A DNA stretch of 35,557 nt, from contig JAITVG010000101.1 in NCBI GenBank assembly GCA_031285925.1, positions 1 through 35,557 on the forward strand, read 5' to 3'. The DNA comes from Tannerellaceae bacterium. GTDB taxonomy: Bacteria; Bacteroidota; Bacteroidia; Bacteroidales; Tannerellaceae. The position numbers were made by a program, and so were the translations under genes. Position 1 is the stretch's first letter. Each line of letters begins with the position of its first letter. Shown here piece by piece: positions 6,202-31,965 of this stretch. The notes under the pieces were generated by a model. That model saw nothing but the letters and a program-made list of their open reading frames with translations. It had not been told where the DNA came from and did no database searches.

Positions 6202-7104
6202 ATGGCAAATCTTCCGGTAATTGAGATGACGGTTGTGAGCGATCTTATAACCGCAACCGATAGTTTTCAGGACATGCTGACGGTAGCGGATGTAGATGCA
6301 ACTATTTCGATTAAACGATATGAATTTGAAGGCTATACGGATCCGGTTCGTTTGAATGCCCTTTTCCTGATACTGGTGTTGAAAGGGGAGGCGAAAATCA
6401 GTCTGGACTATATACATTATACCATTAGCCCGAATATGCTTGTTACCGTAATGCCCGTACATATTCTTCAGGCAGCCGAAGTCAGTCCCGACTTCAAGGC
6501 GGTGATGATCATGATCCACCGCTCTTTCCTTGAAGGATTGAATATAGCCCAACGCACACCTTCGATGACCAACTACATGCTTCTTCGTAAAAACCCCTGC
6601 ACAAATCTGTTGCCGGAAGAAACATTGCATTTGGAGAACTGTACCCGGCAATTGCGCGAGAAGATACACCGGCGCACACATGCCTTTCATAAGGAGCTTA
6701 TGCAAAACGCCTTTGTCGCACTGATGTTGGAGATGGCCGATATTATGGTGGGAAAGAAGGATACGGTTGTACACCGCACACTGTCGCGCAAGGAAGAAAT
6801 CATGAATAAATTCGTGAACCTTCTCATCCGGCACGGCAAGCGCGAACATCATGTGTCTTTTTATGCGGCGAAACTGTTCATCACTCCCCAGTATCTGTCC
6901 CTGATCCTGAAGGAACTGTCCGGAAAGTCGGCCAATAAATGGATTGACGAAGCGCTTGTGATGGAAGCCGGGATATTGTTGAAGACGCCGGAACTGACGG
7001 TACAGCAGGTGGCCGACGAATTAAACTTCTCCGACCAGTCTACCTTCGGCAAGTTCTTCAAGAAGAATACAGGCCTCTCTCCGATGGAATACAGGAAAGT
7101 GTGA
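6202..7104 (+). CDS. AraC-family transcriptional regulator
   Basis: A 300-residue protein with an N-terminal cupin-like sensing domain (about 15-150) and a C-terminal double helix-turn-helix (about 195-300). The DNA-binding half ends with the family signature: VADELNFSDQSTFGKFFKK and the terminal TGLSPMEYRK. It has no signal peptide or membrane helix, so it is cytosolic. The gene is divergent from the efflux tetR and lies next to the PUL, so it could serve either. The duplicated scrap of an araC 3' end beside the GH3 gene (14956-14995) shows that an araC-GH3 pairing existed in this locus, which favours a role in glycan use. The ATG at 6202 follows a -7-like TACATTTG. The effector is unknown. 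Confidence 0.9.
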   Translation: MANLPVIEMTVVSDLITATDSFQDMLTVADVDATISIKRYEFEGYTDPVRLNALFLILVLKGEAKISLDYIHYTISPNMLVTVMPVHILQAAEVSPDFKAVMIMIHRSFLEGLNIAQRTPSMTNYMLLRKNPCTNLLPEETLHLENCTRQLREKIHRRTHAFHKELMQNAFVALMLEMADIMVGKKDTVVHRTLSRKEEIMNKFVNLLIRHGKREHHVSFYAAKLFITPQYLSLILKELSGKSANKWIDEALVMEAGILLKTPELTVQQVADELNFSDQSTFGKFFKKNTGLSPMEYRKV

Positions 7105-7182: not shown

Positions 7183-7287
7183 ACACACAGCACATTGCGA
7201 AATGTGAAAAAGTGTTTCTATATATAGTACGCGCTCGTACTACCTATACAACGGCGCCGTACTATAGGTAGTACGCGCTCATACTAC
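7183..7287. repeat. Palindromic intergenic repeat, copy A (inverted partner at 18949-19041)
   Basis: Two stem-loop blocks are visible. The first pairs CACATT with AATGTG. The second is a 38-bp near-palindrome at 7237-7274, with arms GTACTACCTATA / TATAGGTAGTAC and centre CGGCGCCG. A direct repeat AGTACGCGCTC(G/A)TACTACC flanks the second block at 7227 and 7269. Bases 7183-7275 match the reverse complement of 18949-19041 with about 5 differences in 93. Together with the GH3 stump, this fills the 235-bp araC-sigma gap. Confidence 0.85.
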
Positions 7288-7334: not shown

Positions 7335-7342
7335 TAATTTTG
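7335..7342 (+). promoter_or_regulatory. Putative -7 box of the ECF sigma gene, possibly leaderless
   Basis: TAATTTTG matches TAnnTTTG and ends only 6 bp before the ATG at 7349. Transcription would begin at or next to the start codon. A weak TTA sits about 18 bp upstream in place of a -33 TTG. Confidence 0.4.
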
Positions 7343-7348
7343 CCAAAT

Positions 7349-7921
7349 ATGGAAACCAGAGATATATCGGAAATAGACAAACTCTTTTGGCAGATAGCGT
7401 TAAAGGACGATGAGGGCGCTTTCCGCTCTTTGTTTCTTGATTATTTTTCTTCGCTTTGTGTTTTTGCACACAGGTATATCGAAAGTTGGGAAACGTGTGA
7501 AGATGTAGTGCAGGATACCTTTTATAAAATATGGAAAAACCGCAGGAAACTGGAAATAAGCGCTTCGGGCAGGAATTTTTTGATTACCAGCGTGCGGAAC
7601 GGCTGCATCGACTATCTGCGCAGAAAAGAAACGGAAACCTTATGGAAAGAAAAAGAATTGCAGCATAACACGATATATGCCGCGGAAAATATTTACTCGA
7701 CAACAGAACTGGAAGAAATCTTAAATTCGGCATTGAAACGTTTACCTGAAAATGTGCGCACAGTGTTCGAACAAAGCCGTTTTGAAGGGAAAACTTATGC
7801 GGATATTGCCTCCGGACAATCTATTTCGGTCAAGACGGTGGAAGCCTACATGACGAGGGCATTGAAACAATTGCGCATAGAACTTAAAGATTATTTGCCA
7901 CTGATTTTACTTTTTCTGTAA
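7349..7921 (+). CDS. ECF-type RNA polymerase sigma factor
   Basis: A 190-residue sigma-70 family ECF factor. Region 2 covers about residues 22-90 (CEDVVQDTFYKIWKNR is the core-binding/-10 segment). Region 4 covers about 125-180 (LKRLPENVRTVFEQSRFEGKTYADIA, then SVKTVEAYMTRALKQLR as the -35-binding helix). I chose the ATG at 7349 rather than the upstream in-frame TTG at 7340, because a TAnnTTTG box runs into the TTG. It is followed 60 bp later by a FecR-type anti-sigma and then by a SusC carrying an STN domain. In Bacteroidetes this arrangement passes an outer-membrane ligand signal through FecR to the sigma factor, which activates the susC operon. The target promoter is presumably upstream of 9219. 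Confidence 0.93.
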   Translation: METRDISEIDKLFWQIALKDDEGAFRSLFLDYFSSLCVFAHRYIESWETCEDVVQDTFYKIWKNRRKLEISASGRNFLITSVRNGCIDYLRRKETETLWKEKELQHNTIYAAENIYSTTELEEILNSALKRLPENVRTVFEQSRFEGKTYADIASGQSISVKTVEAYMTRALKQLRIELKDYLPLILLFL

Positions 7922-7940
7922 AAAAAACTTTTTTCATAGG

Positions 7941-7958
7941 GTACAGCTCCACCTGTAC
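7941..7958. promoter_or_regulatory. Small hairpin between sigma and anti-sigma genes
   Basis: GTACAG-CTCCAC-CTGTAC is a perfect 6-bp stem with a 6-base loop. It lies in the 60-bp gap between the sigma stop and the GTG start of the anti-sigma. It could modulate translation or read-through, or be an inverted-repeat binding site; nothing decides between these. Confidence 0.35.
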
Positions 7959-7981
7959 GTCTATTTTTAAAATTAAATGTA

Positions 7982-9010
7982 GTGAACATCACCACGCAAC
8001 ATATATTAGCCTATCTGGATAAAGAATTGTCGACGGAAGAAAGGTATGATTTCGAGAAAACGCTGGAGTCTTCGGCCGAATTGCGGCAGGAATTGGAGGA
8101 AATACGTTTGGCCTGGGAAATGACTGCCGAATTGAAAATGCACAAACGAATCAACACAGCAAAAAACTGGAAAGAATTATCCCGTAGAATAACGGTCGAG
8201 AAATTTCGGAGAAAATTATGGATATTTACACGTAACACTGCCGCCATATTCTTGTTGCCGTTCATGATCGCTGCCCTTTTATTATTCAAAGGCGTAAAAG
8301 AACGTGATCATGCACCTGCTGAGCAGATAGAACTTACGTCGGCCAACGGGCTTGTGTCGAAAGTTTCATTATCTGACGGATCGGAAGTCTGGCTTAACTC
8401 CGGTTCAAAACTGTCTTATCCGCAACGGTTTAAAGAAGGTATCCGTGAAGTTTCCCTTTCCGGAGAAGCCTATTTTAAGGTAAAAGCCGACGATGAAAAC
8501 CGCTTTGTCGTACTTGCCGGCGAGAAGTTGTCGGTAAGCGCTTACGGCACGGAATTTAATATATGCGCATACGAAGATGAACAGACGATCGAAGCGACCC
8601 TGGTTGCCGGAAATATAGAAGTAAGTGTCGTTGCGGACGAAAAGTCCGGAAAAACAAAGATCCTTCGCGAACAGCAAGCCGTGTTTGATAAAGAAAGCGG
8701 AAAATTAACCGCCGGCAGAATCAATGTGGCGGTAGAAACTTCATGGAAAGACGGGAAAATGCTATTTCGCAGAGCAAACATGAAGGAGATAACACGCTGC
8801 CTGTCGCATCATTTCAATGTAGACATATATTTACAGGGCGAAGAACTGCATGACTATGAATATTCCGCAACTTTTACGACAGAAACCCTGGAAGAAATAC
8901 TGTATTTGCTGGAGAAGTCATCGCCTATAAAAATAGAGATAATATATCCGGAACAAGCGGATAATTATTCGTATACAAAACGTTCGGTAGTAATAAGTAT
9001 AAAAGAATAA
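7982..9010 (+). CDS. FecR-family anti-sigma factor
   Basis: A 342-residue single-pass inner-membrane regulator. Residues 1-80 form the cytosolic anti-sigma part (HILAYLDKELSTEERYDFE). One membrane helix is at about 85-103 (TAAIFLLPFMIAALLLF). The periplasmic FecR domain spans about 115-215 (NGLVSKVSLSDGSEVWLNSG, LSGEAYFKV), and a DUF4974-like C-terminal domain about 262-335 (FRRANMKEITRCLSHHFNVD). The DUF4974 domain resembles an STN fold and is thought to contact the STN domain of the partner SusC. The start is GTG at 7982: the nearest upstream ATG is immediately followed by an in-frame TAG. The susC gene begins 208 bp downstream, the usual order for this signalling triad. Confidence 0.92.
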   Translation: MNITTQHILAYLDKELSTEERYDFEKTLESSAELRQELEEIRLAWEMTAELKMHKRINTAKNWKELSRRITVEKFRRKLWIFTRNTAAIFLLPFMIAALLLFKGVKERDHAPAEQIELTSANGLVSKVSLSDGSEVWLNSGSKLSYPQRFKEGIREVSLSGEAYFKVKADDENRFVVLAGEKLSVSAYGTEFNICAYEDEQTIEATLVAGNIEVSVVADEKSGKTKILREQQAVFDKESGKLTAGRINVAVETSWKDGKMLFRRANMKEITRCLSHHFNVDIYLQGEELHDYEYSATFTTETLEEILYLLEKSSPIKIEIIYPEQADNYSYTKRSVVISIKE

Positions 9011-9218: not shown

Positions 9219-12200
9219 ATGAAGAATCTACTATCAAACAAAGGGTTCAGGTTAAATTACAACTTGATTCCTAAAATCCCAAATTTTATGCGAATAGCCT
9301 TATTGCTTTTATTTGTTATTGCACTTCAGGCCGGAGCAAATTCTCTTTATTCCCAGTCCGCCAAAGTGAGCCTTGAAATGAATAATGCTACTGTGGAAGA
9401 AATTCTTAATACGATTGAAGAAGAATCGGAATTTTATTTTTTGTACAACAGTAAGCTCGTTGACGTAGACCGAAAGGTAAGTGTTAATGTGAAATCACAG
9501 TCTGTTGAAACTGTTTTAGACCAGTTATTTGCTTCAACTGATGTAACCTATAAGATTGAAGACAGGCAAATTATTTTAAGTAAAAAAGAATTTGCAGGAA
9601 ATGAACTCCAGCAAAACAAAAAGACGGTAAGCGGCGTTATTGTAGATAATCAGGGAGAGCCTGTTATCGGAGCAAGTATTGTTGAATCCGGTACGACCAA
9701 TGGTGTTATTTCGGATGTGGACGGCAAATTCAGTATCAGTGTTTCACAGGATGCCATGCTGCAAGTTTCATATATCGGATATGCGGCGCAAACTATCAGT
9801 ACAGCCAATCAGACGAGCCTCCAAATAGTGTTGTTGGAAGATACGCAGGTGTTGGATGAAGTAGTGGTTGTAGGCTACGGCACAGTGAGGAAGAAAGACT
9901 TGACGGGGGCGGTTATTCAGGTTCGCCCCGACCGTTTAGCTAACGAAAATCCTCAAACCATCCAGGATGTGTTGCGCGGAACAGCCGGTTTGAATGTAGG
10001 GATGAGCAATGATGCAAAGGGGGGCGGCTCACTCAATATCCGCGGACAACGTTCGGTTTACACCGATGGTGGTCATAATGACCCATTGTTAATCCTTGAC
10101 GGTATGCAATTCTATGGCGAACTGTCAGAAATCAATCCGGATGATATAGAGCAAATTGACATACTGAAAGATGCCTCTTCGGCTGCCATTTATGGAGCCA
10201 AAGCTGCTAACGGTGTGATTATCATCACCTCAAAAAAAGGTAAAAGCGGCAAGCCTGTCGTGAATTTTACAGGTAGCCTGGGATTGACTACGCGTGCGGA
10301 TTATGAGCGTTATTTCACCGCTGATGAGTATCTGCAACACAAGGTAGACTACTATGAATCGAATACCTTTGGGGTAAATTCTGCCGGTCAATGGTCGCCT
10401 TATCAAACAGGTTCAATTGCAAATAGGCCTTATTATTACACCAACTACAAAAATCTGCCTGAAAGCATCAGTCTGGATCAATGGCGTGGCTATACACAGA
10501 ACGCCGCAGGCGAAAGCGATGAGAGTATTTGGGCAAGACGCATCAACTTTCATGATGAATTGCTTGATAACTATCTGGCAGGCATGTATGTGAATTGGGA
10601 AGACTATGTCTATCGAACGGGTATACAACAGGATTATAATATAAGTGTAGGTGGTGCTTCGGATAAAGCGAACTATTACCTTTCTGCAGGTTACCTGGAC
10701 AATCAGGGAGTGCGTAATGGAAATGATTACAGTACTGTCCGTGTCAATATGAAGTTGAACATGGATGTCACGAAATGGTTCTCCATTGGCGCCAATGTCA
10801 ACTTTCAGGATCGTACAGACGGAGACAACTATAATCCTGAAGGAATGAGAGGTAACGCGCCTTGGGCTAATCGCTACGATGAGAATGGTGACTTGGCGCA
10901 ATACACTTTACCCAGCTATAGTATGAGAGGGAACGCATCCGACTTTAATGCAAGATACCAAGAATTGGAGAAAGGGTATACCGTATTCAACACTCAATTC
11001 AACGCAAAGGTGAAGTTGCCGTTTAACATCACTTACCAATTTAATGCTTCTCCGCGCTACCAATTTTTTTACGACCGTTATTTTACTTCACAGGAATTAC
11101 CCGATTCAAACCCTGTGGATCGTGGTGTGAACCGTGAACAAAGTAAGAGGTTCGACTGGTCGTTAAACAATACCATTACTTGGGATCAGACTTTTGCCGA
11201 AAAGCATCATGCGGTAGTGACTTTGGTACAGGAAGCTGAAGAGCGTCGCTTTTGGAAAGATCGAATTGAAGCACGAGATATACAACCTTCAGATGCACTC
11301 GGGTTCCACAATACGGAGAATGGTAATCTCGAAAACAGCAAATTTTCTTCTGAAGATACCCATGAAACGGCTGATGCTTTGCTCGCCCGTCTGCAATATA
11401 CCTATGATGACCGTTACCTGCTTACCGCTTCCGTACGTCGCGATGGCTATTGCGCATTCGGTGGAAACAATCCTTATGCCACGTTCCCTTCCGTAGCGTT
11501 GGGTTGGACATTTACCAATGAGGAGTTTTGGCAGTGGCAGCATATAATGGACTATGGTAAACTTCGCGTGTCATACGGCAAGAATGGAAACCGTTCGTTG
11601 GCTAACCCCTATTTGGCGCTCTCTAATCTGACAACAGGCAAATACATGGGATATATTTATAATAGCACGATCAACGATATGACATATCTGAGAGTTGAAC
11701 GTTTGGCCAATCCGAATTTGCAATGGGAAAAATCACAGGCATGGAATATTGGCCTCGACTTCGGTTTCTTGAATCAGCGTATCTCGGGTAGCATCGAGTA
11801 CTACAATACACAGACCAAAGATATGATTATGTATCAGAGACTACCTCAGTTCATTGGTTTCGGTGGTATCAACACGAACCTCGGACAGGTAGATAATAAT
11901 GGCTTCGAGTTGACCATCAACTCAAAGAATATGGATTTGCCCAATTTTCAATGGAATACACAGTTTGGTTTTTCTTACAATAAAAACAGGATTGTGCACC
12001 TCTATGGTGAGTACGATGAGAACGGCAAGGAGATGGACGATACTTCAAACGGATGGTTTATCGGCAAATCCATCAACGAGATTTGGGATTATAAGGTGAC
12101 GGGTATTTGGCAAAAAGACCAGATAGAAGATGCTGCCAAATATGGCCAAAAGCCGGGTGACCCGATTGTGTGGAACAACCCCGACAATGATATCAATAAT

Positions 12201-12749
12201 GAAGATGGTACGACTACTATCGTATATGACAACGACGATAAGCAGTTTCTCGGTAAACGTACAGCTCCTATCAATTGGTCCCTGCGTAACGACTTTATCC
12301 TATTTAAAAACATCTCGGTAGGATTCAGCATATACTCATACATGGGACATAAACAACACCGCGAAGGCACCTATGATAGCGATGCTTTCCTTAACAATGA
12401 CAATGGTGGCGGTTTCTTGGAATATGGAATGTACAACCAACCCTGGAAGCGTTACTGGACAATTGACAACCCCGAAACAATGATGGGCCGTATCAATGCC
12501 GTCGGGCCTACAGGTGCGGAAAAGCCCAACCTCTATCTGAACCGTTCTTTTGTACGCTTTGACAATCTCTCGATTGCCTACACCCTACCCAAGGCCTGGG
12601 TAGAGAAACTTCAAGTGAGCAACGTGAAAGTACATGCCAACGTGAAGAATATAGGCACTATCCACTCCGGTGATTGGTACTATGGTGACCCTGAGAATAT
12701 TGGGGTTTCCACTCGCACTTATACCTTCGGTCTTAATGTAACATTCTAA
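9219..12749 (+). CDS. SusC-type TonB-dependent outer membrane transporter with STN domain
   Basis: Outer-membrane importer of oligosaccharides, 1176 residues. In order: signal segment (about 24-45), STN domain (about 50-120; AKVSLEMNNATVEEILNTIE), CarboxypepD-regulatory-like domain (about 136-212; VSGVIVDNQGEPVIGASIVE), the SusC-typical linker DEVVVVGYGT, a plug domain (NIRGQRSVYTDGG, LLILDGM), then a 22-strand barrel ending in YTFGLNVTF with the usual terminal Phe. The STN domain marks it as a signalling transporter partnered with the FecR/ECF pair just upstream. SusD follows 13 bp after the stop. By eye the sigma-SusCD block is more AT-rich and uses different codons from the GH genes. I did not calculate this, but it would fit acquisition as a unit. 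Confidence 0.96.
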   Translation: MKNLLSNKGFRLNYNLIPKIPNFMRIALLLLFVIALQAGANSLYSQSAKVSLEMNNATVEEILNTIEEESEFYFLYNSKLVDVDRKVSVNVKSQSVETVLDQLFASTDVTYKIEDRQIILSKKEFAGNELQQNKKTVSGVIVDNQGEPVIGASIVESGTTNGVISDVDGKFSISVSQDAMLQVSYIGYAAQTISTANQTSLQIVLLEDTQVLDEVVVVGYGTVRKKDLTGAVIQVRPDRLANENPQTIQDVLRGTAGLNVGMSNDAKGGGSLNIRGQRSVYTDGGHNDPLLILDGMQFYGELSEINPDDIEQIDILKDASSAAIYGAKAANGVIIITSKKGKSGKPVVNFTGSLGLTTRADYERYFTADEYLQHKVDYYESNTFGVNSAGQWSPYQTGSIANRPYYYTNYKNLPESISLDQWRGYTQNAAGESDESIWARRINFHDELLDNYLAGMYVNWEDYVYRTGIQQDYNISVGGASDKANYYLSAGYLDNQGVRNGNDYSTVRVNMKLNMDVTKWFSIGANVNFQDRTDGDNYNPEGMRGNAPWANRYDENGDLAQYTLPSYSMRGNASDFNARYQELEKGYTVFNTQFNAKVKLPFNITYQFNASPRYQFFYDRYFTSQELPDSNPVDRGVNREQSKRFDWSLNNTITWDQTFAEKHHAVVTLVQEAEERRFWKDRIEARDIQPSDALGFHNTENGNLENSKFSSEDTHETADALLARLQYTYDDRYLLTASVRRDGYCAFGGNNPYATFPSVALGWTFTNEEFWQWQHIMDYGKLRVSYGKNGNRSLANPYLALSNLTTGKYMGYIYNSTINDMTYLRVERLANPNLQWEKSQAWNIGLDFGFLNQRISGSIEYYNTQTKDMIMYQRLPQFIGFGGINTNLGQVDNNGFELTINSKNMDLPNFQWNTQFGFSYNKNRIVHLYGEYDENGKEMDDTSNGWFIGKSINEIWDYKVTGIWQKDQIEDAAKYGQKPGDPIVWNNPDNDINNEDGTTTIVYDNDDKQFLGKRTAPINWSLRNDFILFKNISVGFSIYSYMGHKQHREGTYDSDAFLNNDNGGGFLEYGMYNQPWKRYWTIDNPETMMGRINAVGPTGAEKPNLYLNRSFVRFDNLSIAYTLPKAWVEKLQVSNVKVHANVKNIGTIHSGDWYYGDPENIGVSTRTYTFGLNVTF

Positions 12750-12762
12750 CAAATTCGTAATT

Positions 12763-14784
12763 ATGAACAAGATGAAATATATCAATAAAATTTGGGGGAT
12801 CATTCTTATTGGAGCAACTGTTATGGTGAGCAGTTGCAGTGAAAATTTTCTCGAACCCGACCCGCTGTCGTTCTATGAACCTTCGGCAACATTTACTACC
12901 GAGGCCGGTCTGAAAGCGGCATTGGCGCAAGCTGATCGCAATATGAAGCTCTATTACACCACCAGTTCGGATGTACTCCTGCCTATCGCTACGGAATTTG
13001 TTTTCTCGGATATGCTTGTTGTTAGCGCAACCGACAAACAGTCACAGATCAGCGATATTGCCAATATGCTGGTGCCCAGTACAGGTGTTTACAATACTGC
13101 TAACGATGGCGCTCGCATGCACAGTATTATTCACTTTTGGAACGAGAATTACGCAGGTATCAAGTATGCCAATACGGTGCTCGATTATGCTCCCCACGTA
13201 ACAACTTTGTCTGAAAAGATCAGGAACGAGTATGTCGGACGCGCTTATTTTCATCGTTCTTTTCGCTACTATGCGATGGTTCATCAGTTTGGAGATGTAC
13301 CCTTAGTGAGCAAACTGGTCGAAGTACCCAAGCAAAATTATCGCTCCACAAAGCGAGAAGCCATTCTTCAGATGATTGAAATTGACATGGAGAAAGCCAT
13401 AGAATGGGTGCCTGAGCAACCTGTCGGTAGCTACACAGTCGGCTATCCCGGCGGTTATATAAATAAGGCAGCCTGCCGCATGTTGCTTGCTAAAATCTAT
13501 ATGGCTAATGGTAAATTCCAGGAGGCTAAGGCTCAGCTTGACATTCTCATTGACCAAAGCGGCTTCAGACTGATGACCGAACCGTTTGGCACAGAAGTAC
13601 AACCTGCTGCTTCGGAAACGTGGAAGGTAGAACGCAACGTTATTTGGGATCTCCACCGTGGCGAAAATATCTATAATGCCGCCAATACGGAACTGATTTT
13701 GGGTATACCCAATCAAGGTGAGAACATTGTGGGTTACACAATTATGCGTTGTCTATCTCCTTTTGTGTTCAACGGCGCTTTGGCAAGCCCGTCAGGCAGA
13801 CAGGGTCTGCAGAACTACAACCGTAGAGACGGCAAGTACAATGCCGAGTATGACTATCAACGCGTGTTCGGTCGTGGCGTAGCTTCCATGCGTCCTTGTA
13901 CTTGGGCGCAGTATGGATTGTGGGAAGTGAACGACAAAACGGATGAGGGTGACCTGCGGCACAGCCGCAAGGCAGGCAACTGGCTCCACATGGGCGACTT
14001 GAAGTACAATAACAAAGACGATCAGGAATGGTTTGGAAAGAACCTCCGTCTATTCGACGACGAAGGTAATCTGCTTTGTAATGACACGATTCGCCGTTGG
14101 TACGACATTCCGCTGTATAAATTCTACTACTACGATAAGGTGCAAGACGACAATCTGAGTTCGGACGGTTTCCGTGGTGCACAAAGGGGTAGTATCGGTG
14201 ACCTCTATCTCTATCGTTTGGCAGAGGCTTATCTGCTGCGTGCAGAGGCTAAATTCTATATCAACCCAAGTGATCCGGGGATTGCCGACGATGTAAACAT
14301 CATCCGCGAACGTGCTCAATGTGAGCAGCTCTACACTGCAGGGCAAGTGACTATCGGCGATATCTTCGACGAACGTGCTCGTGAACTTTACCTAGAAGAG
14401 TGGCGTCACGTTGAGTTGGTTCGCGCTTCTTTCGGCCTTGCTATCAGTGGTCGGCAGGATGAATGGGGAAATACTTACAGCCTTGATAACCTAACCAAGC
14501 AGAGCGGTACCGACCAGTCTGGTGGTAGTTACTGGTATCAGCGTTGTATCAAAAATAATTTCTACAACGATGGTATTACCCGAAATGTAGTTGCTTCCGG
14601 ACAGTCATCCATCAACTACACCATGGATAAGAAAAACATGTTCTGGCCTATTCCCGAAGTGGCCATTACATCAAATAACAAGGGTAAACTCTTTCAAAAT
14701 TATGGTTACAGCGGCTACGATGAAAGTATTTCAGTTTGGGATAACTGGGAAGATGCGGTAGCAAATGAAGACATAATAGAATAA
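12763..14784 (+). CDS. SusD/RagB-family glycan-binding lipoprotein
   Basis: Surface lipoprotein that caps the SusC barrel and captures glycan. It has 673 residues, slightly long for the family. The lipobox VMVSSC places the acylated Cys at residue 25, followed by SusD-type LEPDPLSF. Tetratricopeptide-like helices carry typical SusD motifs (YAGIKYANTVLDYA, EYVGRAYFHRSFRYYAMVHQFGDVPLV, LYLYRLAEAYLLRAEAKF, DDVNIIRERA, ERARELYLEEWRHVELVR). Its start is 13 bp after susC, giving a two-gene susCD operon. No SusE/SusF or surface endo-glycanase follows; instead a MITE-like palindrome starts 16 bp past the stop. The ligand cannot be read from the sequence. Confidence 0.96.
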   Translation: MNKMKYINKIWGIILIGATVMVSSCSENFLEPDPLSFYEPSATFTTEAGLKAALAQADRNMKLYYTTSSDVLLPIATEFVFSDMLVVSATDKQSQISDIANMLVPSTGVYNTANDGARMHSIIHFWNENYAGIKYANTVLDYAPHVTTLSEKIRNEYVGRAYFHRSFRYYAMVHQFGDVPLVSKLVEVPKQNYRSTKREAILQMIEIDMEKAIEWVPEQPVGSYTVGYPGGYINKAACRMLLAKIYMANGKFQEAKAQLDILIDQSGFRLMTEPFGTEVQPAASETWKVERNVIWDLHRGENIYNAANTELILGIPNQGENIVGYTIMRCLSPFVFNGALASPSGRQGLQNYNRRDGKYNAEYDYQRVFGRGVASMRPCTWAQYGLWEVNDKTDEGDLRHSRKAGNWLHMGDLKYNNKDDQEWFGKNLRLFDDEGNLLCNDTIRRWYDIPLYKFYYYDKVQDDNLSSDGFRGAQRGSIGDLYLYRLAEAYLLRAEAKFYINPSDPGIADDVNIIRERAQCEQLYTAGQVTIGDIFDERARELYLEEWRHVELVRASFGLAISGRQDEWGNTYSLDNLTKQSGTDQSGGSYWYQRCIKNNFYNDGITRNVVASGQSSINYTMDKKNMFWPIPEVAITSNNKGKLFQNYGYSGYDESISVWDNWEDAVANEDIIE

Positions 14785-14800: not shown

Positions 14801-14953
14801 GAGGGTGTGTCAAAAGTCAATAAAAGAGATTAAAACACAGAGGCACGGAGGACACGGAGTTTTTTATTTTACTCATTATCAGAATAATAATAAAACTTCG
14901 TGTCCTCTGTGCCTCTGTGTTTAATCTCTTTAAACGACTTTTGACACACCCTC
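14801..14953. mobile_element. MITE-like palindromic element (153 bp)
   Basis: Terminal inverted repeats of 18 bp, perfect: GAGGGTGTGTCAAAAGTC at 14801-14818 and its reverse complement at 14936-14953. An inner stem pairs AAGAGATTAAAACACAGAGG with the matching strand ending at 14931 and continues through CACGGAGGACACGGA. The loop is AT-rich and carries no ORF. It lies between convergent susD and GH3, so if transcribed it would fold into a long hairpin and could terminate both. Related half-copies lie at 26932-26950 and 31753-31836. Its right end falls 2 bp from the araC scrap. Confidence 0.75.
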
Positions 14954-18948: not shown

Positions 18949-19041
18949 CGTGCTACCTATAGTACGGCGCCGTTGTATAGGTACTACGCGCTCGTACTAT
19001 ATATAGAAACACTTTTTCACATTTCGTAATGTGCTGTGTGT
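18949..19041. repeat. Palindromic intergenic repeat, copy B (inverted partner of 7183-7275)
   Basis: The reverse complement of 7183-7275 with about 5 differences in 93. It keeps the CGGCGCCG-centred near-palindrome (18950-18987) and the CACATT..AATGTG stem. The hexamer GCGCTC of one copy appears as its reverse complement GAGCGC in the aligned other copy. It lies in the 380-bp gap between GH43 and the toxin gene, about 115 bp upstream of the toxin start. The rest of that gap is AT-rich with promoter boxes at each end. Confidence 0.85.
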
Positions 19042-19123
19042 TAAGCTGGCTGAGATATTGTCCCCTTTTCGGGGAACTGCAAAGAAAAAGTGAGATTTTT
19101 TTTTGAGAAAAGTTGCATGAATG

Positions 19124-19154
19124 TTGTATAATTATATAACTGCGCTTATATTTG
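19124..19154 (+). promoter_or_regulatory. Promoter of the TA-HTCS gene string
   Basis: TTG at 19124-19126 and TATATTTG at 19147-19154 with a 20-bp spacer form a good Bacteroidetes -33/-7 pair. The -7 box ends 4 bp before the toxin ATG, so the transcript would start at or next to the start codon. Confidence 0.55.
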
Positions 19155-19158
19155 CTCC

Positions 19159-19490
19159 ATGAGAAAGATAATAGCTTACAAAGGGTACTTTTCTGACTTT
19201 ATGTCTAAATTGCAAGAGCATGAAAGAAAAAAATATCAAAAGCATTACTGCTATTTGAAACAGAAGACAAGATTCCGGCTCACTATATTAGCTTTATAAG
19301 AGACGGAGTATATGAGTATCGCGTAAACTATGGGAGCAATGAATTTAGAATATTATTTATATACGACGGAAATGACATAGTGATTCTATTCAACGGCTTT
19401 AGAAAGAAAACACAGAAAACTCCTAATAACGAAATCGAAAAAGCGATAAAATTAAAAGCAGAATACAATGGAACTAAAAGAAATCAGTAA
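19159..19490 (+). pseudogene. HigB/RelE-type toxin gene with a -1 frameshift at an A7 run
   Basis: The gene starts ATG at 19159 and reads MRKIIAYKGYFSDFMSKLQEHERKK, then hits TAA at 19297. One frame back, from 19233, it continues ISKALLLFETEDKIPAH, then FIRDGVYEYRVNYGSNEFRI, then VILFNGFRKKTQKTPNNEIEKAIK, to TAA at 19488-19490. That combined protein of about 110 residues is a standard Bacteroidetes RelE/HigB-family mRNA-interferase toxin (phage-derived Gp49-like). The switch lies in AGA-AAA-AAA (A run 19227-19233), a correctly phased A AAA AAA slippery heptamer. It is either a one-base loss that kills the toxin, a phase-variable tract or programmed -1 frameshifting. The reading frame overlaps the antitoxin start by 23 bp. 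It was missed by the ORF track. Confidence 0.8.
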
Positions 19491-19773
19491 GGATGTTTAC
19501 GATGTAAGCGGATACCTTGCAAAAGAATTTGGAGAGATCGGATCTCCTGAGCGGGAAGAATCCACGAAAAAGGCATGGGAAGAGTACAATGCTCAAATAT
19601 TATTGGATGCCCGTAAAAATGCCAGACTAACACAAGAGGAACTGGCTAAACGTATAGGAGTAGACAAAGGATACATTTCAAGAATAGAAAGAGGAATTAT
19701 CGTTCCTACTGTATCTACATTATACCGCATTGCATCAGCTATGGGATTGACCGTAGAATTACGTCCGATGTGA
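19468..19773 (+). CDS. XRE-family antitoxin (HigA-like)
   Basis: A 101-residue protein with an XRE/Cro-type helix-turn-helix at about residues 42-97 (ARKNARLTQEELAKRIGVDKGYISRIERGIIVPTVSTLYRIASAMG). The toxin-first order, the 23-bp overlap with the toxin frame and the size match HigBA-type toxin-antitoxin pairs, in which the antitoxin also represses its own promoter. The ATG at 19468 is the only start that keeps the full N-terminal region (MELKEISKDVYDVSG). Unusually, the stop is followed after TAA by the ATG of the HTCS at 19777, so the antitoxin and the PUL sensor probably share a transcript. Autoregulation by this protein would then touch HTCS expression; this is inference. Confidence 0.88.
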   Translation: MELKEISKDVYDVSGYLAKEFGEIGSPEREESTKKAWEEYNAQILLDARKNARLTQEELAKRIGVDKGYISRIERGIIVPTVSTLYRIASAMGLTVELRPM

Positions 19774-19776
19774 TAA

Positions 19777-22700
19777 ATGATACGATTAATCCTTACATTA
19801 TCGGCCTTCTGTTGCTTCGCCATTCTCTCCGGCGCAAACGAATTTGCGTTCAAGCACTTGGAAATAAACGACGGGCTTTCCAACAGCCAGATCAATTATA
19901 TCACCAAAGATTCGCGCGGCTTCATGTGGTTCTCCACCTCCTACGGGCTTAACCGCTACGACGGCTATGTATTCAAAGTCTTTACCCGCAACAGCAACGA
20001 CCCTCATTCACTGCCCGATAATTATGTACACGACGTGCAGGAAGATGCCGACGGATTGCTTTGGATACGCACGGAAAATGCGGGATATGTCTGTTATGAT
20101 CCGCAGAAGGAAACATTCCGGCCGGCAGGGCCTCTGTTGGAAGAGAAATACGGAATTCCGGATGCACCCGGGCGGATGTACGTGGACAAGGGAAAAAACA
20201 TCTGGTCGTATGCCTATAACGGAACACATTGCTACGATATAAAGGAAAAGAAACTTCACTTCTATCCGGCTGAAGAGGTGTATAAGGAACAGGGCGTAAG
20301 CCTTCTCGCTTTTGAGGAAGATGAAAATGCCGTCGTGCTGCTCTATTCCAACGGTTATTTCGAGTTGATAAGCCGGAAGACGAAAGAAATAACGCACCGC
20401 AACCGGACGCTTGTCAATACCGCGAGCGTTGAACACCGGAAATACGGAATACTCGTCGATGCGGACGGCGACTATTGGCTGTATGGTGATAATGAAGTGT
20501 GGCTCTACTCCGTCGGCGAAGACAAATGGCAACAGGTCAGCACCCGGAAAGACTCCCCCTACGTACTCTCTTCCGGAAGCAACGTGAACGCAATAAAAAA
20601 GGATGCGGAAAACCGGATATGGATAGCCATGGATCACGGAGGCATCAACATCGTCGATAAAAACCTGCACACAGTAAGGCTTCTTCAAAACGACGTATTC
20701 AACGAAAGCAGCATTTTGCAGAACAGCATAAATGCACTCTACTGCGACGAAACCGGCGGAATGTGGGTGGGCTACTACAAGAGAGGGATTTCCTATTACA
20801 ACGAAAGCATATTCAAGTTTCGCACCGACTACCTGTCCGAATTCAACCGGATCGGGAATTTCACATCCGATGTGAATACGATTGTTGAAGACAAGCAGGC
20901 CAACCTGTGGGTAGGAACCAGCAGCGGCCTTGTATTCATCAACCGTGAAACCGATGAACGGAAGATATACCGCCACGAATCAACCGGAAATTCCCTGTCG
21001 GGAGATGTAGTGGTAAGCGTGCTGAAAGCGAAAGACGGGAAAACGTGGATAGGCACTTTCCTCAACGGGCTTAATGCTTTCGACGGACAGACTTTCACCC
21101 GGTACAGGCATCAACCGGACAATGCCAATTCCTTGAGCCACGACAATGTATGGGCACTGGCCGAGGGCGACGACGGATATATCTGGATAGGCACGCACGG
21201 AGGCGGACTGCAGGGACTCGACCCGCGCACGGGGAAGTTCACTACCTGTTCCAAGCCGGGTACGGGATATGACACGGAGTATATAACATCCGTTTTCGTA
21301 GGGCGCGACGCAAACATATACATGGCCACGACCAACGGCATAACCGTCTATTCGTCGGCGACCGGTACATTCGAGAAATGGCTTACAAATAAAAAGGGGA
21401 CGCAAAGTTTTTTGCATCCGAGGCTGAATGAAATATATGAGGATAGCCGGGGGCTGCTTTGGGCTGCTACGGCCGAAGGGCTTAATGTGTACGACCGCAG
21501 ACGGGATGAAATCACTGTGCCCGTGAAAGAGCCGCCTCTGGGAAATGAAATCATTCAGGCCATCATAGAGGATAACGATAAAAACATGTGGGTAACTACA
21601 ACCAGCGGCATATTCAACCTCGTGGTAAACATTGATCCGAAAACGGGGATGTATACTTACGCCTGCCATCGCTATGGTGAATTGGACGGCTTGCGAGGGC
21701 AGCAGTTCAACGCGCGTGCCATAGTCAAGACCTTCCGGGGGGAAATCATATCGGGAGGTATCCGGGGAATAAACTTTTTCGATCCCGCCGGATTAAAATA
21801 CAACAGCAACGCTCCCAAAATAGAATTTACGGGATTGCAACTGTTCAACCGGGAGGTTAAGATAGACGGCGTATATAACGGAAACCGCATCTTAACCCGG
21901 CCACTTAACTATACAGAGTGTATCCGCCTGAAATACAAGCAAAATGTGTTTTCCGTTTTCTTCTCGGCAATGAATTATGTGTTGCCGGAAAAGACCGGAT
22001 ACATGTATATGCTCGAAGGATTTAATCACGATTGGCTTACTACGAATAATAACAACCTGACATATACCAATCTGTCGGCAGGAGAATACGTGCTGAAGGT
22101 GAAGGCTATCAATAGCGACGGTTTCAGCAGCCGGGAAACATCCGAACTCAAGATCATCATCGAACCTCCTTTCTGGGCATCGCCTGTTGCATACGTATTG
22201 TACTTCTTCCTCATAGTCGGCATATTCTTTTTAGTACGCAGGGAAATACTGCACAACGAACGACAAAAGTACCAGCTGGCACAGATCAGGCAGGAAGCTC
22301 AACAAAAGCATGATATCGACGATGTGAAGCTGCGCTTCTTCACCAATATCAGCCATGAGTTGCGCACTCCGCTCACGCTGATTATCTCTCCGCTGGAGAA
22401 TGTGATAAGCCGGATTGCAGACGACGACCAAAAAAACAAGTTGGAGATGGTACACCGCAATGCCCTGCGGTTGCTCGATATGGTTAATCAGCTGCTCGAC
22501 TTCAGGAAGAGCGACGTGAAAGGGCATCGCTTCAATTCGTCGCAGGGAGATATTGTTGATTTCATCCGTAAGGTCAGCTATTCGTTCAATGAATACTCGG
22601 AAAAGAAGAATGTGCGCTTTTTCTTCTTCTCGGCAGTCGAGGAAATGTTTATGGCATTTGATGAAGACAAGATGGGCAAGATTATAATGAACCTGTTGTC

Positions 22701-23889
22701 CAATGCCTTTAAGTTTACCCTTGACGGCGGCAGGGTAGACGTTTCGCTGGATTGCCTGCCGGCTACGGAAGAACAGCCGGAACTGTTTGAAATTAAGATT
22801 TCGGATACAGGCGTAGGCATTAAAGACGAAGACAAAGCACTCATATTCGAACGCTTTTATCAGGCTCAACAGAAAGGAGGGCAGAAAACAGGCGGCAGCG
22901 GCATCGGGCTGCATTTGGTGAAAGAATTTGTTTCCCTGCACAACGGTTCTGTTACCGTGCTCGACAACGTGAGCAAGGGGAGTGTGTTTATAATCACACT
23001 TCCGATAGTTCGCGCACAGACGGCACAGGAACAGGAAGCCAAAGCGATACCGGAAGGCACGGAAGCACCTGTGGAGATGCCTTCGGCCGACGATGTTCCG
23101 ACCGGTAATGCCGCTGACAGGGAGAAGGAATTGCCGATTGTCCTTATTGTCGATGACAATGAAGATTTTCGTCATTTCATGCGCGACAGTTTAAATTCGG
23201 AATACAGGGTGGAAGTTGCCGCAGACGGCGCGAAAGCATGGGCGATAATCCCGGAACTGCAACCGGATGTTATCGTAAGCGATGTGATGATGCCGGAAAT
23301 GGACGGGAATGAGTTGGCCAAATTAGTGAAGACGGACATACGCACCTCACACATCCCCTTGATCCTGCTAACCGCCCGTTCGGCTAAAGAGCATCAACTG
23401 GAAGGATTGGAAAGCGGAGCGGATGATTACATCACCAAGCCGTTTGAATTTAATATATTGAGTTTACGCATTAAAAGGCTGCTGAAGCTCCGCCAAAAGC
23501 GGCAGGAGAATTTTAATCCGCGGATGGAGATTGCTCCCGCTGAAATAACAATCACTTCACTGGACGAGAAGTTGATACGGAAAGCCATCCGCTACGTGGA
23601 AGACAATATCGACAGAAGCGAACTTTCGGTGGAAGAACTTAGCAGCGAACTGAATATGAGTCGGGCGCATCTGTATAAAAAAATTCTATCCATCACGGGA
23701 AAAACACCGATAGAGTTCATACGTGTCATCCGGCTGAAGCGTGCCGCACAGTTTCTGCGTGAAAGCCAGCAAACGGTGTCCGAAATTGCTTATCAGACCG
23801 GGTTCAGCAATCCGAAGTTCTTTAGGAAATACTTCAAGGAAGAGTTTGGTATTCTGCCTTCCGAGTATCAGGACAAAAAGGGGAAATAG
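19777..23889 (+). CDS. Hybrid two-component system (HTCS) sensor-regulator of the PUL
   Basis: One-protein sensor, kinase and activator, 1370 residues. Signal peptide to about residue 20. Periplasmic two-bladed-propeller sensor with repeated Reg_prop motifs (FMWFSTSYGLNRYDG, NLWVGTSSGLVFINR, YIWIGTHGGGLQGLD) to about 690, then a Y_Y_Y domain (MYMLEGFNHDWLTTNNN) to about 795. Membrane helix at about 802-825 (VAYVLYFFLIVGIFFLV). Histidine kinase with phospho-His near 860 (NISHELRTPL), N-box (NLLSNAFKFT) and G-boxes (DTGVGIKDED, GGSGIGLHLV). Receiver domain with phospho-Asp near 1169 (IVSDVMMPEMDG). C-terminal AraC-type DNA-binding domain (about 1270-1365). All key residues are present. The start lies 3 bp after the antitoxin stop. 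It probably activates the flanking GH genes and possibly susCD on sensing an oligosaccharide. Confidence 0.96.
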   Translation: MIRLILTLSAFCCFAILSGANEFAFKHLEINDGLSNSQINYITKDSRGFMWFSTSYGLNRYDGYVFKVFTRNSNDPHSLPDNYVHDVQEDADGLLWIRTENAGYVCYDPQKETFRPAGPLLEEKYGIPDAPGRMYVDKGKNIWSYAYNGTHCYDIKEKKLHFYPAEEVYKEQGVSLLAFEEDENAVVLLYSNGYFELISRKTKEITHRNRTLVNTASVEHRKYGILVDADGDYWLYGDNEVWLYSVGEDKWQQVSTRKDSPYVLSSGSNVNAIKKDAENRIWIAMDHGGINIVDKNLHTVRLLQNDVFNESSILQNSINALYCDETGGMWVGYYKRGISYYNESIFKFRTDYLSEFNRIGNFTSDVNTIVEDKQANLWVGTSSGLVFINRETDERKIYRHESTGNSLSGDVVVSVLKAKDGKTWIGTFLNGLNAFDGQTFTRYRHQPDNANSLSHDNVWALAEGDDGYIWIGTHGGGLQGLDPRTGKFTTCSKPGTGYDTEYITSVFVGRDANIYMATTNGITVYSSATGTFEKWLTNKKGTQSFLHPRLNEIYEDSRGLLWAATAEGLNVYDRRRDEITVPVKEPPLGNEIIQAIIEDNDKNMWVTTTSGIFNLVVNIDPKTGMYTYACHRYGELDGLRGQQFNARAIVKTFRGEIISGGIRGINFFDPAGLKYNSNAPKIEFTGLQLFNREVKIDGVYNGNRILTRPLNYTECIRLKYKQNVFSVFFSAMNYVLPEKTGYMYMLEGFNHDWLTTNNNNLTYTNLSAGEYVLKVKAINSDGFSSRETSELKIIIEPPFWASPVAYVLYFFLIVGIFFLVRREILHNERQKYQLAQIRQEAQQKHDIDDVKLRFFTNISHELRTPLTLIISPLENVISRIADDDQKNKLEMVHRNALRLLDMVNQLLDFRKSDVKGHRFNSSQGDIVDFIRKVSYSFNEYSEKKNVRFFFFSAVEEMFMAFDEDKMGKIIMNLLSNAFKFTLDGGRVDVSLDCLPATEEQPELFEIKISDTGVGIKDEDKALIFERFYQAQQKGGQKTGGSGIGLHLVKEFVSLHNGSVTVLDNVSKGSVFIITLPIVRAQTAQEQEAKAIPEGTEAPVEMPSADDVPTGNAADREKELPIVLIVDDNEDFRHFMRDSLNSEYRVEVAADGAKAWAIIPELQPDVIVSDVMMPEMDGNELAKLVKTDIRTSHIPLILLTARSAKEHQLEGLESGADDYITKPFEFNILSLRIKRLLKLRQKRQENFNPRMEIAPAEITITSLDEKLIRKAIRYVEDNIDRSELSVEELSSELNMSRAHLYKKILSITGKTPIEFIRVIRLKRAAQFLRESQQTVSEIAYQTGFSNPKFFRKYFKEEFGILPSEYQDKKGK

Positions 23890-31752: not shown

Positions 31753-31836
31753 GCTGCACCAAAAGTCGATTTAAGAGATTAAACGCAGAGGCACGGAGGA
31801 CACGGAGTTTTTACATTTCCCCTCCGTGCCTCCGTG
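31753..31836. repeat. Related ACGGAGG palindromic repeat, possible terminator after purA
   Basis: The left part (AAAAGTCGATTTAAGAGATTAAACGCAGAGGCACGGAGGACACGGAG) follows 14811-14860 closely. The right part gives a stem, CACGGAGGACACGGAG against CTCCGTGCCTCCGTG, with a one-base bulge and an 11-15 base T-rich loop. The GAGGGTGTGT terminal repeat has decayed. It lies 18 bp after the purA stop in a 230-bp gap. The remainder of the gap is AT-rich lpxK upstream sequence, with a TATCTTTG box at 31908-31915. Confidence 0.7.
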
Positions 31837-31965
31837 TTATTTTAGCGAAACGCAAGAGTTATAGCAAATTATAGCGAGGAAATGGTGATTTAAAAGAATT
31901 TGTCAATTATCTTTGTGAAACAGACGTTGGAATGGTTGCTTTGATCCGAATCATTTTTTTGTAAG

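Follow-up and report, generated by a model that had tools for sequence, protein, structure and literature searches.

The HigA antitoxin of Pseudomonas aeruginosa binds palindromes in promoters and represses them (PMC6987408), and both this protein and the HigA of Mycobacterium tuberculosis also regulate other genes (PMC6987408, PMC11205783). In Bacteroides fragilis, a strain-variable higBA insertion lies upstream of a beta-propeller-encoding gene and is flanked by 52-bp direct repeats, one of which is positioned 61 bp upstream of that gene (PMC5705921). Bacteroides promoters have the consensus TTTG at -33 and TAnnTTTG at -7 (PMC7366714). According to the original prediction, no toxin-antitoxin (TA) module had been described at the head of an operon for the hybrid two-component sensor/regulator (HTCS) of a PUL, and the open-licence literature on TA systems with PUL or HTCS genes and on Bacteroides higBA likewise yielded none.

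The window, a stretch of 35,557 nucleotides, comes from a Tannerellaceae draft genome of 2.82 Mb in 293 contigs, estimated at about 80% completeness, that is most likely metagenome-assembled. Its PUL comprises, in order, an ECF sigma/FecR pair (7340-9010), SusC (9219-12749), SusD (12763-14784), GH3 and GH43 on the minus strand, and the HTCS and GH31 on the plus strand, and is followed by housekeeping genes. SusC, SusD, GH3, GH43, GH31, and the HTCS are each full-length open frames. The cluster carries two kinds of PUL control, the ECF sigma/FecR pair, which adjoins SusC, and the HTCS (19777-23889). GH43 and the HTCS are separated by a HigBA-family cassette and, upstream of it, a dispersed repeat with its core at 18949-19041. 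The cassette is AT-rich, with a GC content of 0.32-0.37 compared to 0.46-0.56 in the neighbouring genes, and this low GC agrees with its insertion at the site. Known RNA families were not found in the window.

The reading that we favour, with a probability of roughly 0.62, is that the HTCS would be the third gene of the HigBA cassette transcript, placed under an antitoxin-repressed promoter through the replacement of its native leader. At the level of sequence, this reading draws on the tight junction between antitoxin and HTCS, the conserved promoter-operator, the lack of any other recognisable promoter, the cassette-free ortholog loci, and the broken toxin.

The genes ahead of the HTCS had been taken for a complete TA pair, and this description is not confirmed in the window, which has no complete open toxin gene. 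The 5' part of the HigB/Gp49-type toxin gene (19159-19299, plus strand) is opened by the ATG at 19159, and translation of this frame reaches a stop at 19297-19299 after 46 aa, a product with no family match. The toxin remainder, Gp49 (PF05973; 19224-19490, plus strand), is encoded in another frame, with a Pfam match (E=2.6e-17) that spans profile positions 12-88 of 90. It has no start codon ahead of its domain, and its 3' end overlaps the antitoxin start by 23 nt. Comparison of the frames with those of homologs places the point of frame loss at an A7 run (19227-19233, plus strand).

The XRE-family antitoxin (19468-19773, plus strand) is an intact open reading frame of 101 aa (HTH_3, E=1.6e-16). 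Its homologs are full-length and up to 79% identical, and as in HigBA-type modules, and as in the window, the toxin is encoded upstream and the antitoxin second. The HTCS, on the plus strand, is intact as well (1370 aa; orthologs at 60-78% over the full length), and Pfam finds Reg_prop repeats, Y_Y_Y, HisKA, HATPase, a receiver, and an AraC HTH in the one protein. With this full domain set, and with SusC/SusD and glycoside hydrolases (GH3, GH43, GH31) adjoining it, it is a PUL HTCS. Its start codon is sound, because the N-terminus is signal-peptide-like and aligns with the orthologs from residue 1. The antitoxin ends at 19773 and the HTCS begins at 19777, so the predicted 3-bp gap between them is real. 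It consists of the TAA at 19774-19776 (plus strand), and the resulting TGA-TAA-ATG is a possible stop/restart coupling site.

A promoter scan located a Bacteroidetes-type promoter, GTTG-N20-TATATTTG (19123-19154, plus strand), which ends 4 nt before the toxin ATG and whose -7 element TAnnTTTG lies at the same place in homologous cassettes. This is the only site scoring at least 9/10 in 18990-20000. As nothing in 19159-19776 reached 8/10 in the same scan, it is the sole recognisable candidate for the toxin remnant, the antitoxin, and the HTCS, and the expectation of one good promoter upstream and none right before the HTCS was borne out. An E. coli-type match upstream of the toxin, TTGAGA-N18-TATAAT, was discarded as the wrong model for this phylum. 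Owing to the short distance between promoter and start codon, the cassette mRNA would be nearly leaderless.

The palindrome GTTGTATAATTATATAAC (19123-19140, plus strand) overlaps the -33 box of this promoter and is a putative operator bound by the antitoxin. In 37 of 53 cassettes, TAnnTTTG directly precedes the toxin start. The operator centre is palindromic in 37 cassettes, where on average 5.8 of 9 pairs are complementary, compared to a median of 2.7 for other centres. The centre of the 18-nt palindrome between the -33 and -7 boxes is fixed, while its letters vary among cassettes (GTTGTAT..ATACAAC, GTTTCAT..ATGAAAC, AATTGTAC..GTGCAATT). The window cassette thus possesses the promoter with putative palindromic operator of a HigBA module, at a position kept in 37 cassettes. 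This arrangement matches that of autorepressed TA operons, of which P. aeruginosa HigA is a solved example; in the window, operator and antitoxin are matched only through their positions and conservation within the family. Across the order, HigBA cassettes (e.g. L015, L016, L018, L019, and L021) also have TAnnTTTG a few nt before the toxin start and the operator between -33 and -7, which implies that their mRNAs, too, would be nearly leaderless.

The HTCS is likely co-transcribed with the antitoxin, given the 3-bp gap and the lack of another consensus promoter. A lesser possibility, to which we assign a real but clearly minor chance, is that the HTCS is transcribed independently, from a non-consensus promoter of its own within the antitoxin gene, which would make the cassette a passenger and the HTCS level independent of the antitoxin. 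Among 93 other HTCS upstream regions, only 27 carry a promoter resembling the consensus in the nearest 150 nt, where chance would give 5.5, so the unmatched antitoxin gene may still hold a promoter of non-consensus type. The genes behind the other 66, which have no consensus-like site in the last 150 nt, must be transcribed all the same, and many HTCS genes sit well away from the preceding gene. On the other hand, the scan of 19159-19776 stands against such a promoter, and the conserved antitoxin coding sequence runs to its stop codon and leaves little room for a native leader. A native HTCS promoter remaining upstream of the cassette was also considered, as the T9...GTTGCATGAA before 19123 resembles the T8-9...TTG of the ortholog leaders. 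It was rejected because the GTTGCNTGAA part is also present before the nearest cassette homolog, L015, and more likely belongs to the cassette.

The nearest HTCS orthologs come from other genera of the family. Three are in one genome (L154, L155, and L156, at 78%, 71%, and 60%, respectively) and one is in another (L157, 60%), and a closely similar HTCS was not found in the same genus as the window, where the best match is 40%. L158, L159, and L160 are partial HTCS copies whose 5' ends are off the contig. The cassette is absent at all four ortholog loci with the HTCS start region (L154 to L157), and each of them has its own sequence before the HTCS ATG, the upstream region of L156 containing a run of N further up. 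L154 carries GH3 (89%), the HTCS (78%), and GH31 (84%) in the same order and orientations as the window, with about 460 bp of its own sequence upstream of the HTCS. Between GH3 and the HTCS of L154, a GH43 remnant (C-terminal piece) can be read by eye at 6607-7068, and this suggests that the ancestor had the gene order of the window. The homology of the HTCS begins at its ATG and that of the cassette stops at the antitoxin stop codon. These boundaries, together with the cassette-free orthologs and their own upstream sequence, make it most likely that the cassette took the place of the native leader of the HTCS. A link between the HTCS level and the antitoxin level is plausible, since the only recognisable promoter is that of the cassette, the operator is conserved, and the HTCS lacks the upstream region of its orthologs.

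The arrangement of antitoxin and HTCS has one metagenome-assembled contig as its sole witness, and the junction or the toxin frameshift could be an error in a fragmented assembly (293 contigs, 80% complete). The cassette has as its upstream neighbour a palindromic intergenic repeat of MITE/REP-like type (18949-19041, plus strand), a high-copy element prone to misjoins. A DNA search of the own 2.8 Mb draft genome and alignment of the copies gave about 40 strong matches, mostly 87-97% identical, with the core CTATAGTACGGCGCCGTTGTATAGGTACTACG..TATATAGAAACACTTTTT and no Rfam match; a second window copy lies at 7183-7275 on the minus strand. However, the junction itself is unique sequence more than 700 bp away from this repeat, a search of the genome gave a single further cassette-like copy, at 68% identity, and no additional broken frame was seen in the main genes of the window, so that an assembly artefact is improbable. 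The junction had no match in viral contigs. The genome also holds a second, diverged HigBA-like antitoxin with a truncated toxin (G000:C99:310-667; L161, L220). A second family of dispersed short repeats, with about 50 matches in the genome, is present in the window at 31760-31838, 14811-14864, and 14892-14943, with two of these copies in facing orientation in the interval from SusD to GH3.

Loss of the PUL was expected to be penalised if the toxin works. Such addiction needs a complete toxin to begin with, and it is not supported here because the toxin gene carries a frameshift. A working addiction module that stabilises the PUL would have to obtain full-length toxin by -1 ribosomal or transcriptional slippage on the A7 run. 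The run reads A_AAA_AAA in the zero frame, a possible slippery site from which a -1 slip would enter the HigB frame, and the antitoxin is intact; slippage could in principle still yield some toxin. In contrast, 38 of 53 homologous toxins are unbroken by a coverage test, a number that includes a few with partial deletions (e.g. L026, L027, and L204), and these are read directly, which argues against slippage as a trait of the family. Broken toxins are, moreover, common (about 15 of 53), and addiction by slippage is quite improbable. A programmed frameshift as a family trait was rejected as well, since most homologous toxins lie in one frame, and the prevalence of unbroken toxins among homologous cassettes marks the window frameshift as an apparent local lesion. 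Least probable of all is that the HTCS has been poorly expressed or silent since the loss of its native leader and that the PUL is decaying, because the HTCS, SusC, SusD, GH3, GH43, and GH31 all remain full-length open frames.

At the thresholds used, 54 of 125 genomes of the family contain antitoxin homologs, as do 20 of 393 genomes sampled from the order. None of the 52 other cassette loci has an HTCS-like sequence within about 1.5 kb. Conversely, no TA module was found before about 90 further HTCS genes when their upstream regions were compared with the cassette panel (96 regions, of which three are either the window's own or duplicates of ortholog loci already included), and the best match outside the window has E=0.004 on the opposite strand at 27% identity. 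The search for higBA before HTCS genes elsewhere thus gives no support to a TA-led HTCS operon as a general design. The arrangement is not conserved across genomes, and the pairing of TA and HTCS appears to be a one-off.

Tight placement of the cassette before other genes does recur. In L233 (4195-5640 on the minus strand, and flanks), a thiamine operon is interrupted by a cassette that ends 2 bp ahead of thiH (thiG ... thiC - cassette - thiH), and this parallel indicates that the cassette family lands tightly before genes. The L233 cassette lies between thiC and thiH, and about 11 internal residues are deleted from its toxin. Other tight downstream genes are radA-like (27 bp), AraC-like (36 bp), a TonB receptor (44 bp), and acetolactate-synthase-like (52 bp); apart from the thi genes, all were named by reading the translation. 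Because tight placement before unrelated genes recurs, the HTCS case looks like one outcome of a cassette dropping before genes rather than a device specific to PULs. An association of toxin loss with closely following genes was considered and dropped. Among the six tight cases, the toxin is not intact in L014 and L222 and is internally deleted in L027, but these numbers are too small and broken toxins are common overall. On plasmids and phages, the antitoxin has relatives below 60% identity only, and no source element was identified among them. No convincing direct repeats flank the cassette as a mark of insertion.

In the favoured reading of the HTCS as third gene of the cassette transcript, a cassette of the HigBA family, bringing its promoter and operator along, would have arrived directly before the HTCS start codon and displaced the leader that is present in the orthologs. 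The HTCS would then be transcribed as the last gene on the cassette mRNA, perhaps with stop/restart coupling at TGA-TAA-ATG. The XRE antitoxin would bind the palindromic operator of the shared promoter, so that antitoxin abundance would set the HTCS level, with a presumed effect on the PUL. The frameshift would have inactivated the toxin and left the promoter, the operator, and the antitoxin in place. As the toxin is broken here and the arrangement occurs in no other genome compared, it appears to be an accidental promoter takeover and not an addiction device that protects a sugar locus.

If the HTCS is read from the antitoxin-repressed promoter, the locus would be a natural case of a TA cassette rewiring the control of a polysaccharide sensor by leader replacement, and it would suggest a route by which antitoxins become stand-alone regulators. 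A further step, which we consider doubtful, is that the antitoxin was kept after toxin loss as a dedicated repressor that couples the PUL sensor to conditions destabilising the antitoxin; if true, a nutrient regulator would gain an input responsive to stress or proteases. As the example of thiH suggests, the cassette family also lands before genes of unrelated pathways. The window locus does not show addiction of a PUL.

Compared to HigBA type II operons, in which the toxin comes first, the cassette has the same succession of PF05973 and HTH_3, a short gene overlap, and a palindrome overlapping the promoter, whereas its toxin is frameshifted and a PUL sensor gene follows after 3 bp. Similar to the HigA proteins of P. 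aeruginosa and M. tuberculosis, its antitoxin is predicted to be a DNA-binding regulator reaching beyond its own pair. In contrast, the targets of those proteins are separate palindrome-bearing sites in the genome, while the target gene in the window would share the cassette promoter. The HTCS resembles those of other Bacteroidetes PULs in its full domain set and its adjoining SusCD and glycoside hydrolases, and it differs from its orthologs in having the cassette instead of an upstream region of its own. The cassette homolog in L233 belongs to the same family and has the same tight placement before an unrelated gene (thiH, 2 bp), but was inserted inside a thiamine biosynthesis operon. Finally, as with the higBA of B. 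fragilis (PMC5705921), a higBA pair is located upstream of a beta-propeller-encoding gene, and unlike that insertion, the window cassette is without flanking repeats of this kind.
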